A DNA stretch of 64,000 nt, from positions 62,001-126,000 of the forward strand of contig JAKASJ010000002.1 in the NCBI GenBank assembly GCA_021819085.1. Direction: 5' to 3'. The stretch's first letter is position 1. Every line of letters starts with the position of its first letter. Made by a program: the position numbers and the translations under genes. This document shows positions 46,718 to 50,708 of the stretch, piece after piece. The DNA is from Pseudomonadota bacterium (lineage in GTDB: Bacteria > Pseudomonadota > Gammaproteobacteria > Acidiferrobacterales > UBA6901). The notes below the pieces were generated by a model, which made no database searches, had not been told where the DNA came from, and saw only the letters and a program-made list of their open reading frames with translations.

Positions 46718-47782
46718 ATGACCCTACTCGACCGGCACATCGCGCGCAGCATTCTGACCAGCACTGCCCTGGTATTCCTGGTGCTCATGGCGTTGTTCAT
46801 GTTTTTCAAGTTCGCCGATGCGCTCGGCGACTACGGCAAGGGAAGCTTCGGGATGTCGGAAGTCGTCGTCTACGTGCTGCTGCGCATGCCCTGGGAAATG
46901 TATCGGCTGTTTCCCATGACGGCACTGCTTGGGACGACGCTCGGTTTGTCTTCGCTTGCGGTGGATTCGGAACTCATCGCCATGCGTGCCGCCGGAGTTT
47001 CGATACTGCAAATCGTCGGAGCTGCGATGAAGATCGGGCTGGTCTTCGCGGTCGCCGCGCTGATCCTGGGCGAGGTCATCGCTCCGGTGACGGAAAACAT
47101 GGCAGAGCGCGGGCGTTCGCAGGCCCTGCACCAGGGGGTCGCGCAGGAAAATAACTACGGCCTGTGGATGCGGGACGGGCTGTCGTTCGTGCATGTCGGC
47201 GAAGTCCTTCCCGACCTGAGTCTGCTAAAGGTCAATATCTATGAATTTGGAGCGGGCGACCACCTGCGCAAGCAGACCTACGCCAGTAGCGGCCGCTACG
47301 TGGACCACCACTGGCAGCTGACCGACGTGCGCCAGAGCTGGATTGAGCATGACCAGGTGCGGACGCGCCATCTGCCCTCGGAAGTGTGGTCGGCTGCCCC
47401 CAAGCCCAGCACGCTCGCCGTGTTCGCCGTCAAGCCGGAAGGCTTGTCGATCTGGAACCTGTATAGCTATATCCAGCACCTGAAAGCAAACAAGCAGGAT
47501 ACCGGCCGTTACGAGCTGGCGTTCTGGAACAAGATTGTTTCTCCGTTTGCCACCGCCGTGATGGTGATTCTCGCGATTCCCTTTGTATTCACGCACCTGC
47601 GCAGCAGCGGTGTGGGCGTGCGCCTGATGATCGGCTTCGGGATGGGCGCTGCGTTTTATATCCTAAGCCGCGGTTTCGGCTACTTCGGCCTGCTCTACGG
47701 ATTGCCGCCCGTGGTCGGTACGGTGTTGCCCACGCTTCTGTTTCTGGGGATAGCGCTCGTCATGCTGCGACGGGTCGGTTAG
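46718..47782 (+). CDS. lptG: LPS export permease LptG
   Basis: A 354-residue partner of LptF in the LptB2FGC transporter. It starts MTLLDRHIARSILTSTALVFLVLMALFMFFKF, the first membrane helix. SELIAMRAAGVSILQIV is the cytoplasmic coupling helix and the periplasmic domain spans about 115-270. The C-terminal membrane helices include FWNKIVSPFATAVMVILAIPFVF and RLMIGFGMGAAFYILSRGFGY. It follows lptF after 3 bases. Its stop overlaps the convergent RDD gene by 4 bases. Confidence 0.94.
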   Translation: MTLLDRHIARSILTSTALVFLVLMALFMFFKFADALGDYGKGSFGMSEVVVYVLLRMPWEMYRLFPMTALLGTTLGLSSLAVDSELIAMRAAGVSILQIVGAAMKIGLVFAVAALILGEVIAPVTENMAERGRSQALHQGVAQENNYGLWMRDGLSFVHVGEVLPDLSLLKVNIYEFGAGDHLRKQTYASSGRYVDHHWQLTDVRQSWIEHDQVRTRHLPSEVWSAAPKPSTLAVFAVKPEGLSIWNLYSYIQHLKANKQDTGRYELAFWNKIVSPFATAVMVILAIPFVFTHLRSSGVGVRLMIGFGMGAAFYILSRGFGYFGLLYGLPPVVGTVLPTLLFLGIALVMLRRVG

Positions 47783-48234
47783 GAGGAGAGTGCGCCCACG
47801 TCCTTCGGGATCACGATCATGCGTGTCCCGGAAAGCCGGTCGTGCCAGGTGCAGCGGTCGCGGTCGGCCAGTACCCAGAGATATCCGGCCCCGAACGGCA
47901 CCCACGACAGCAAAGCAGCCAGGAAACGCAGCAGCGCCTGACTCCAGGAGACCGCGCCACCGGCGCGATTGACGACGCGCAGGCGCCAGGCGCGCATCCC
48001 GAGCGTCTGGCCTCCATGTACCCAGAACCATCCAAAAAACAGGAACGCCACGACAAGCAGGTAGAACTGGAAGAGGTATCGTCCGGCCTCGCTCGTCGGC
48101 GCCCCCCGGGCGATCAGATCGAAGGGCACCGCAGCGACCAGCAGCACGGCGATCAACACCAGCGTGTCGTACAGGATCGCCGCCAGCCGCCGGATGAGAC
48201 CGGCCGGTTCGCTACCGGGGGCGAGGGTCGTCAT
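47779..48234 (-). CDS. RDD family membrane protein
   Basis: A 151-residue protein with the RDD domain: an N-terminal GLIRRLAAILYDTLVLIAVLLVA (conserved Arg and Asp), a second hydrophobic stretch LLVVAFLFFGWFWVHGGQTLGMRAWRLRVV and a third near ALLRFLAALLSWVPFGAGYLWVLAD. It ends RDRCTWHDRLSGTRMIV, the usual C-terminal motif. The function is unknown; some RDD proteins are ion exchangers. It overlaps the 3' end of lptG by 4 bases on the opposite strand. Confidence 0.87.
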   Translation of the reverse strand: MTTLAPGSEPAGLIRRLAAILYDTLVLIAVLLVAAVPFDLIARGAPTSEAGRYLFQFYLLVVAFLFFGWFWVHGGQTLGMRAWRLRVVNRAGGAVSWSQALLRFLAALLSWVPFGAGYLWVLADRDRCTWHDRLSGTRMIVIPKDVGALSS

Positions 48235-48686
48235 GCGTCGGCGATCTCCGTCCCGGGTCGCACGGGAGTCATCCCGGAAGGCGGATTTTGCACAGATGAA
48301 AAAAATCTTTCTGTGACAGAGACTAACTGCATCGGCCGAATATTAGAGAAACTATATATCACTGATTTATAAGCACTATATGAACTGTTTAAAAAATGTT
48401 CAATCCAACTGAAATAGGCTATTCACCCTAACGCAATATCAGAATTCCCAGCTTATACACAAATTTATCCACAGGAACTGTGTACAACCACCATGACCGG
48501 CAAGATACGGTACGCCAGACCGATGGCAGGGCCGAATCCGGCGCTTCCGGGTTCCGGAAGCTGCAACGCCGGGCGCAATAGTAGCCGTTTGTCCTATCGG
48601 CGGGTAGGGCGTAAACTACGCGCTCGCTGCAGTCAGCGGGCTGCCGTTTCTCGAAAGCATCTTCATTGACGGATACCTGTGCTCCT
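48235..48686. other. AT-rich intergenic region with clustered DnaA boxes
   Basis: A sharply AT-rich core (about 48290-48420, including atattagagaaactatatat and atttataagc) is followed by TTATACACA at 48453-48461, TTATCCACA at 48465-48473 and an inverted TTGTACACA at 48479-48487. This looks like a small DnaA-binding locus or an origin-like element. No dnaA, dnaN, gyrB or mnmG is nearby, so it is only a candidate. It also contains the ccmF upstream region. Confidence 0.5.
48453..48487. promoter_or_regulatory. Three DnaA-box-like 9-mers
   Basis: TTATACACA and TTATCCACA are exact matches to the DnaA consensus TTATNCACA, in direct orientation 3 bases apart. A third, inverted TTGTACACA (one mismatch) starts 5 bases later. 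Confidence 0.5.
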
Positions 48687-50708
48687 ATGTCACCGAACGG
48701 CCTTTCCCTCAATCTCATCGAACTCGGTCACTTTGCCGCCATCCTTGCATTCGTACTGGCCTGCGTTCAGGGGCTCACCCCGATCGCGGCGCGAGTGCTG
48801 CGCCGCCCGGAGCTGGCGAGCCTGACGGGCAATCTGGCCGTCGCGGTCTTCGTGCTCACGAGCATCGGCGGGGCAACGATCATTTACTCCTTCCTGACCA
48901 ACAACTTTTCCGTCCTGGTCGTGGCCAGTCATTCGAATACGCATCTGCCCCTGTTCTACAAGGTGGCGGCGCTGTGGGGTGGGCACCGCGGGTCGCTCTT
49001 CCTGTGGATCTGGGTCCTGACCCTGTTCACCATGGTGCTGGCTTTCGACGGCCAGTCGCGCTATCCGGAGCGCCTGCCTGTGATCCTGGCAGTGCAGGGA
49101 TGGCTGCTCGCCGGTTTCTATGGGCTGTCTTTGTTCCTGTCGAACCCGTTTATGCGGCTGTTTCCGGTCCCGGCCCAGGGTGCCGACCTGAATCCGCTGC
49201 TCCAGGACCCGGGAATGGTAATGCATCCGCCGATGCTCTACATGGGATATGTCGGCTTCTCGGTGCCATTCGCCTTTGCGATGGCAGCACTGATTACGCG
49301 CTGGAAGAGTGAGCTGTGGATCGGAATCATCCGCCGCTGGGCGCTGATTGCCTGGGGATTTCTTACCCTGGGCATCGTGCTCGGCGCATGGTGGTCGTAC
49401 TACGTGCTGGGATGGGGAGGATATTGGGCCTGGGATCCGGTCGAAAATGCCTCCTTCATGCCCTGGCTTGTGGGGACGGCGCTGATCCATTCGATCACCG
49501 TGCAGGAACGTCGACGCATGCTGCATACCTGGAACATCTTCCTGGTGATCACCACGTTTTCCCTGTCATTGCTCGGAACCTTCCTGGTGCGCTCGGGAGT
49601 GCTGTCATCGGTACATGCCTTTACCGTCGATCCGGGGCAGGGCTCGTACATTCTGATATTCATGACGGTGGTGTTGACCGTGTCGTTCGGCATCTTTCTG
49701 GTCCGCGGACGCTACCAGGAGGCGGAAGAGACGGTAACCTCGCCGCTTTCACGTGAATCCCTGTTCGTATGGAACAACGTGGTGTTCACGGCAGCCGCCG
49801 GCTGTGTGCTGCTCGGAACGCTGTATCCGCTGGCGATCAATGCGCTGAACGGGTCGCGTATCACGGTTGGACCTCCCTATTTCGATCTCGTGATGATGCC
49901 CATCTTTTTCATCATGCTGCTGCTGATGGCGGTCGGTCCGCTGGTCCCCTGGCGCAAGGCCAACCTGATCCGTCTGCGCGCGCGTGTGGTGATTCCCGTG
50001 ATCATGGGCCTGGTGGCCGGTGTGCTGATGGCCGTGCTCGCCTGGCCCGTATACTGGACCGGACCCGTAGCGATCGGGCTGGTTGGTTTTGTCTTCGGCA
50101 CGCTGGTTGTCGATCTGGCGCGGGCTGTGCTGCAGCGACGCCTGCAGCATGCCTCGGAAAACGTTGCGGCTTCGGTGTGGCGCACGGTAATGGGGAACCG
50201 TCGGCATTATGGCGGGATGATCGTCCACTTTGGCATCCTGATGATCGCCGTGGGTGTGGTCGGCACCGGACTGTTTCGGCTCGAGAAATCCGTCGTGATG
50301 GCGCCCGGCGACGTGGTCAAGATTGGGAACGAGCGCCTGCGCTTCGACGGTGTGCGCACCTTCAAGAAGGCGAACTATGTGGCTTTGCAGGGGCGGCTGA
50401 CCTCACTTGACCACGGGTTCGTGCTGCGGCCGGAACGCAGGGACTATGGCCGGCAGCAGATGCCGACGACGAACGCCTCGGTGAACTCTGATCCGCTGCG
50501 TGATGTCTACGCTGTGATCGGGGGCGCAGTTCCCGGCAAGAATGGAGTTGTGCGCTATGTCGTTCAGGTCTATATCAACCCGCTGGTCGAATTCCTGTGG
50601 CTAGGCGGATTGACCATGATATTCGGGCTCGGAGTCACGTTGAGTCACCGGGTCCGGCACGGGGCGCGTGCCGTCGCTGCGGAGGCCGTCTCGGCCTACG
50701 CCAAGTAG
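48687..50708 (+). CDS. ccmF: Cytochrome c maturation protein CcmF (haem lyase)
   Basis: A 673-residue inner-membrane haem lyase of System I, which takes haem from holo-CcmE and attaches it to apocytochrome c with CcmH. The tryptophan-rich periplasmic motif WGGYWAWDPVENASFMPW lies near residue 243. Many membrane segments follow, and the conserved RVLRRPELA-like N-terminal and GGMIVHFGILMIAVGVVG C-terminal parts are present. ATG 48687 (MSPNGLSLNLIELGHFAAIL) is used; a TTG 21 bases earlier is less likely. ccmH starts 11 bases after the stop. Confidence 0.96.
   Translation: MSPNGLSLNLIELGHFAAILAFVLACVQGLTPIAARVLRRPELASLTGNLAVAVFVLTSIGGATIIYSFLTNNFSVLVVASHSNTHLPLFYKVAALWGGHRGSLFLWIWVLTLFTMVLAFDGQSRYPERLPVILAVQGWLLAGFYGLSLFLSNPFMRLFPVPAQGADLNPLLQDPGMVMHPPMLYMGYVGFSVPFAFAMAALITRWKSELWIGIIRRWALIAWGFLTLGIVLGAWWSYYVLGWGGYWAWDPVENASFMPWLVGTALIHSITVQERRRMLHTWNIFLVITTFSLSLLGTFLVRSGVLSSVHAFTVDPGQGSYILIFMTVVLTVSFGIFLVRGRYQEAEETVTSPLSRESLFVWNNVVFTAAAGCVLLGTLYPLAINALNGSRITVGPPYFDLVMMPIFFIMLLLMAVGPLVPWRKANLIRLRARVVIPVIMGLVAGVLMAVLAWPVYWTGPVAIGLVGFVFGTLVVDLARAVLQRRLQHASENVAASVWRTVMGNRRHYGGMIVHFGILMIAVGVVGTGLFRLEKSVVMAPGDVVKIGNERLRFDGVRTFKKANYVALQGRLTSLDHGFVLRPERRDYGRQQMPTTNASVNSDPLRDVYAVIGGAVPGKNGVVRYVVQVYINPLVEFLWLGGLTMIFGLGVTLSHRVRHGARAVAAEAVSAYAK

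Follow-up and report, generated by a model that had tools for sequence, protein, structure and literature searches.

The window, a 64,000-nucleotide stretch of a gammaproteobacterial draft assembly of 78 contigs (G000:C69:62001-126000), carries a divergent pair of genes, one for an RDD family membrane protein and the other ccmF, separated by a non-coding gap that holds an AT-rich patch and a group of DnaA boxes (Table 1). The preliminary description of this DNA had called the gap before ccmF the most AT-rich part of the window, and the measurement agrees: the AT-richest 198-nt stretch, starting at 48284-48287, is 66% AT, against 53.5% for the best such stretch elsewhere. The same description had reported two exact DnaA boxes 3 bases apart plus an inverted third, and these are present as boxes III, II and I of the table. 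Read on the minus strand, the cluster is TTGTACACA-GTTCC-TGTGGATAA-ATT-TGTGTATAA, with spacers of 5 nt and 3 nt. A fourth box, TTTTGCACA, is weaker than the other three and was overlooked in that first reading; it is kept in relatives. The IHF-like site is weak and consists of TATCACTGATTTA on the plus strand (48357-48369, one mismatch), overlapped by AATCAGTGATATA on the minus strand (48367-48355, two mismatches). A search for a terminator found none, and an RNA element was set aside for want of any Rfam match.

Table 1. Features in and beside the RDD-ccmF gap. Positions are those of the window; offsets run from the start of the core. DARS-type, resembling a DnaA-reactivating site.
Feature	Position	Strand	Remarks
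RDD family membrane protein gene	47779..48234	-	PF06271; DARS-type element upstream
Fourth, distal DnaA box TTTTGCACA	48286..48294	+	strand as boxes II/III; offset +193
IHF-like site	48355..48369	.	two overlapping matches, offset about +118 to +120; predicted
Promoter-like TTGAAC-17-TATAGT, toward RDD gene	48375..48403	-	overlaps Fis-like block
Fis consensus GAACATTTTTTAAAC (GnnYAnnnnnTRnnC)	48387..48401	-	exact; +86 from core start; predicted site
DARS-type core, boxes I-II-III	48453..48487	-	geometry of E. coli DARS1 and DARS2
DnaA box III TTATACACA (minus reading TGTGTATAA)	48453..48461	+	exact
DnaA box II TTATCCACA (minus reading TGTGGATAA)	48465..48473	+	exact
DnaA box I TTGTACACA	48479..48487	-	one mismatch to TTATNCACA; head-to-head with box II
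ccmF	48666..50708	+	start TTG 48666 or ATG 48687; divergent from RDD gene

The window as a whole shows no general excess of DnaA boxes, with 16 at no more than one mismatch where 16.7 are expected. Across the 3.42-Mb draft genome, just three sites have two exact boxes within 200 nt of each other: this cluster, one beside dnaA, and C60:22140/22330. The last of these (G000:C60:22140-22338) has its two exact boxes on one strand, at a distance of 190 nt. The three-box layout in the gap has a summed mismatch of 1; when the gap was simulated 1000 times with a first-order Markov model, nothing better than 7 came up. A search for a second core in this genome returned weak candidates only, the best of which (C57:59393) has two mismatches and is without an adjoining box I.

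The three boxes share their arrangement with the two DnaA-reactivating sites of E. coli, DARS1 and DARS2: boxes I to III are all there, box I is opposed to II and III, and the spacings are 5 and 3 nt. The element also is non-coding, lies far from oriC, and has a conserved core spacing. When regions are scored by mismatches to the DARS geometry, the window scores 1, DARS1 2, DARS2 3 and datA 6, with oriC at 9 and both the genome's own dnaA region and the window with the element masked at 10. In DARS1, located between bioD and uvrB, the core reads TTATCCACT-ATTCC-TGTGGATAA-CCA-TGTGTATTA, which has the same I(+)-5-II(-)-3-III(-) geometry and an identical box II, with ATTCC as the spacer in place of GTTCC. 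DARS1 is unlike the window element in its neighbours and in having no Fis consensus at +86; according to PMC4585315, it is reported to require just a specific core-flanking region. The DARS2 core, between rppH and mutH, reads TTATTCACC-TTTTC-TGTGGATAG-AGT-TGTGAAGAA, with the orientations and spacers found in the window, and the likeness extends to a non-coding, mid-replichore location and to an arm with consensus sites for IHF and Fis plus one additional DnaA box. The arms are nonetheless put together differently. In DARS2 the core is followed by IHF (+93/+109), Fis (+145) and an exact box (+) at +211, whereas in the window it is followed by Fis (+86), the IHF-like site (about +120) and a box (-) at +193. 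The order core, IHF, Fis that marks the DARS2 subtype is thus absent; because the arm instead runs core, Fis, IHF-like site, same-strand box, we class the element as a DARS by geometry and not as a DARS2, and the regulation of DARS2 may therefore not carry over. Distance from oriC, as a fraction of half the genome, is 0.66 for DARS1, 0.41 for DARS2, and 0.61 for the window-type site of G012, a complete genome of the same order.

For the RDD protein, 96 genomes were searched, its own included, with a match in 69; 30 loci were fetched, 24 from its own order (the window among them) and six from elsewhere in the class. Twenty-two of the 24 same-order loci have the core upstream of RDD; the six fetched from outside the order have none there. 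The Fis consensus stands at +85/86 in 20 of these 22 loci. An inverted fourth DnaA box lies between +192 and +200 in 14, and only eight have, between +118 and +121, an IHF consensus in the forward sense with no more than one mismatch. An alignment of five congeners has invariant columns at 28 of 35 positions in the core, 20 of 21 in the Fis block and 36 of 40 in the distal box block; the spacer has 12 of 41 and the region beyond 2 of 46. A laxer core pattern detects a core in 52 of 57 same-order genomes, with one in the window's own genome and one or two in most others. Among those with completeness of 90% or more and contamination of 5% or less, 34 of 34 have a core. Exact boxes, spacing and strong conservation together back the earlier suggestion of a DnaA-binding site in AT-rich DNA, here a predicted one.

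The core is not confined to this order. The pattern CACANNNNCTGTGGATAANNNTGTG, with at most one mismatch, is found in 298 of 370 genomes of Gammaproteobacteria. A spacing control, with the same boxes separated by 6 and 5 N instead of 4 and 3, matches 4 of 370, and no reversed core pattern appears among the matches listed for the 370 class genomes. Across the phylum, 200 of 397 genomes have core matches, including members of several families outside the class, f200, f204 and f208 among them. Up to eight DARS-type cores per genome occur outside the class, in f200 above all, and most other families there have none. Three genomes (G097, G223 and G404) have five to eight cores each, where one or two is usual. 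In the 6.4-Mb genome G645, five cores on one strand fall within 1 kb (G645:C1:249540-250477), with three more elsewhere; these five might form an array of DnaA boxes, or an origin.

For closer study we took 110 class core loci, the best 30 plus 80 others among the matches listed, which represent 64 genomes by handle count. Some listed loci were left out, among them two of the four in G367, one member of an overlapping pair in G242, and every one listed for G340, G255 and G406. Arm positions were measured from the core start in 103 of the 110, seven being dropped for short flanks. The pattern by which cores were selected carries no information on the positions of Fis, IHF or fourth-box sites, and each of the three is phased with respect to the core. 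Among the 103 loci, the Fis consensus falls at +86 in 30 and at +85 in eight, where the mean is 0.16 per offset. The IHF consensus WATCAANNNNTTR, at no more than one mismatch, lies within +112 to +123 in 59 of the 103, mainly in one orientation, with a peak at +120 and a mean of 0.23 per offset. An inverted DnaA box is found at +195 to +209 in 72 and at +180 to +194 in 12, as compared with zero to six in intervals of the same size outside the core.

Neighbouring genes, identified by tblastn, vary among the 110 loci: PriA at 33, RpmE without PriA at nine, RDD at seven, and others at 61. DnaA, UvrB, BioD and MutH were sought in the same way and found at none. A Fis consensus within +84 to +87 accompanies the core beside priA in 11 of 32 loci, rpmE in 4 of 9, RDD in 4 of 7 and other genes in 22 of 61 (109 of the 110 loci, one having been dropped for a short flank). 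No open reading frame of at least 100 amino acids crosses the core in 24 of the 30 best class loci. Cores adjoining priA or rpmE recur across the class (L118, L119, L127, L145 and 29 further loci); the priA-rpmE gap of E. coli, tried as a possible third DARS in that species, has no core and scores 9. At L278, L280, L283 and L296 the core lies near an apparent polA, recognized by eye from translation, and a gene for a small secreted protein. In 14 of 80 named RDD loci a core lies within 700 nt upstream, accompanied by the Fis consensus in 13, the distal box in all 14 and the IHF site in seven; the other 66 have none in that interval, and no core lies downstream of RDD in 77 segments from named loci. 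These 66, together with the six out-of-order RDD loci, indicate that RDD is no fixed partner of the site.

The AT-rich patch is probably a DARS-type DnaA-reactivating site, one that would recharge ADP-DnaA, and not the origin of replication whose layout the preliminary description saw in it. That description had proposed GC skew and the position of dnaA as checks, and both come out against an origin. Skew is positive in every stretch computed on C69 (0.010 to 0.050 over 16-20 kb stretches of the 182-kb contig); the genome's own dnaA is on a different contig, C52, where the skew reverses sign near dnaA and the dnaA-dnaN gap holds two TTATCCACA boxes. In the congener G004, a single contig has the element at 153.7 kb and dnaA at 838.5 kb, with 685 kb between them, and skew is negative in 20 of 20 stretches sampled from 1 to 851 kb. 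In G012, the homologous element is mid-replichore, 880 kb from dnaA, and the skew switches at about dnaA (0) and at about 1.4 Mb (40 sampled 20-kb stretches). In ten genomes with dnaA located, picked because they are single-contig and with cores entered by hand, all 21 cores are at least 93 kb from dnaA, and in seven of the ten there are cores on opposite sides of it.

A dnaA-dnaN type origin does share with the element its DnaA boxes next to AT-rich DNA, the feature that made an origin attractive, but the element has no skew switch in any of the three genomes, no linkage to dnaA and a different arrangement of boxes. The review PMC10380432 describes head-to-head boxes I and II as a hallmark of DARS that is essential for function, the boxes of oriC being head-to-tail. 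Cores moreover recur at one to four places per genome in complete genomes of the class. GC skew and dnaA position led us to reject an origin, and to read the element as one, chromosomal or secondary, is scarcely credible. A plasmid-like origin was likewise rejected, the gap having no match among 72,556 plasmids. The fallback offered in the preliminary description, a DnaA-regulated or titration site at most, came nearer the mark, although it now looks too modest.

One alternative is that the element serves the divergent RDD and ccmF genes as a promoter region under DnaA and Fis control, with no role in DnaA nucleotide exchange. This would suit its intergenic position and the overlap between the Fis block and the promoter-like sequence directed toward RDD; we consider it unlikely, as the -10 is not retained in L007-L009 where the Fis block is kept, and the layout of core, Fis, IHF and fourth box recurs by the unrelated genes tallied above for 110 loci. 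Passive titration of DnaA by a cluster of several high-affinity boxes distant from oriC would require no fixed 5- and 3-nt spacing and no constant offsets for Fis and IHF sites, and is extremely improbable. There is also the reverse of reactivation to consider, namely a site like E. coli datA, which promotes IHF-aided hydrolysis of DnaA-bound ATP (DDAH) and so has the opposite effect on DnaA. An effect of this kind is conceivable because the IHF-like site is flanked by the core and by a distal box on the same strand, some 167 nt away from box III, much as datA has an IHF site between its boxes 2 and 3, 162 nt apart. Against it, datA is without a head-to-head 5-nt core, its best score being 6 where the window element scores 1, and the element across the class has a Fis site; a datA-like function is very doubtful, and identity with datA was rejected on the geometry.

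Genes for DnaA, Fis and IHF-alpha, on which a site of this type would draw, are present. The window's own genome has a Fis homologue on C8 (51% identity) and an IHF-alpha above the NCBIfam cut-off; a Fis match was found in 57 of 60 genomes searched, a few of these perhaps merely other proteins with a Fis-like domain. Its DnaA is identical to that of E. coli at 287 of 444 aligned residues and retains the functional residues K178, R285 and R334, along with R227 and L290. The latter two are important for ADP release at DARS2 according to PMC4245941.

As we infer them from the sequence, protein binding, bending, nucleotide exchange and timing at the element might run as follows. ADP-DnaA would occupy boxes I and II head to head, with box III in line, and contact between the AAA+ domains of the bound molecules would loosen the ADP. 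Apo-DnaA would then leave, take up ATP again and be able to initiate at the remote oriC by dnaA. Fis (+86) and IHF (about +120) would bend the AT-rich arm, bringing DnaA on the fourth box (+193) to the core complex; through such an arm the site could respond to growth phase and the cell cycle.

The DARS is a kind of site already known, and the order core, Fis, IHF, box IV is different from that of E. coli DARS2. Searches limited to an open-access library turned up no account of this arrangement, nor of DARS cores beside priA or RDD, and we make no claim that none is in print. To our knowledge, DnaA reactivation is understood mechanistically only from E. coli. The DARS2 core is called specific to E. 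coli's relatives in PMC4245941, and DARS-like sequences are said in PMC10380432 to occur in many proteobacteria. Our data provide a spacing-controlled census together with a fixed layout of Fis, IHF and fourth-box sites across the class. It is about an even call whether the common gammaproteobacterial DARS is one phased composite, made up of a head-to-head core, Fis at +86, IHF at +120 and a fourth box at about +203, present at one to several sites per genome and often located by priA or rpmE or upstream of RDD, with DARS1 and DARS2 of E. coli as relocated and rearranged derivatives. The census of layouts offers an evolutionary test of which DARS parts matter and supplies a panel of sites for nucleotide exchange in vitro. 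It also carries a caution for the finding of origins: DnaA boxes clustered at an AT-rich patch can mark a DARS. If the composite is real, DnaA reactivation would be a class-wide system, positionally tied to replication-restart genes, and not something peculiar to the near relatives of E. coli.
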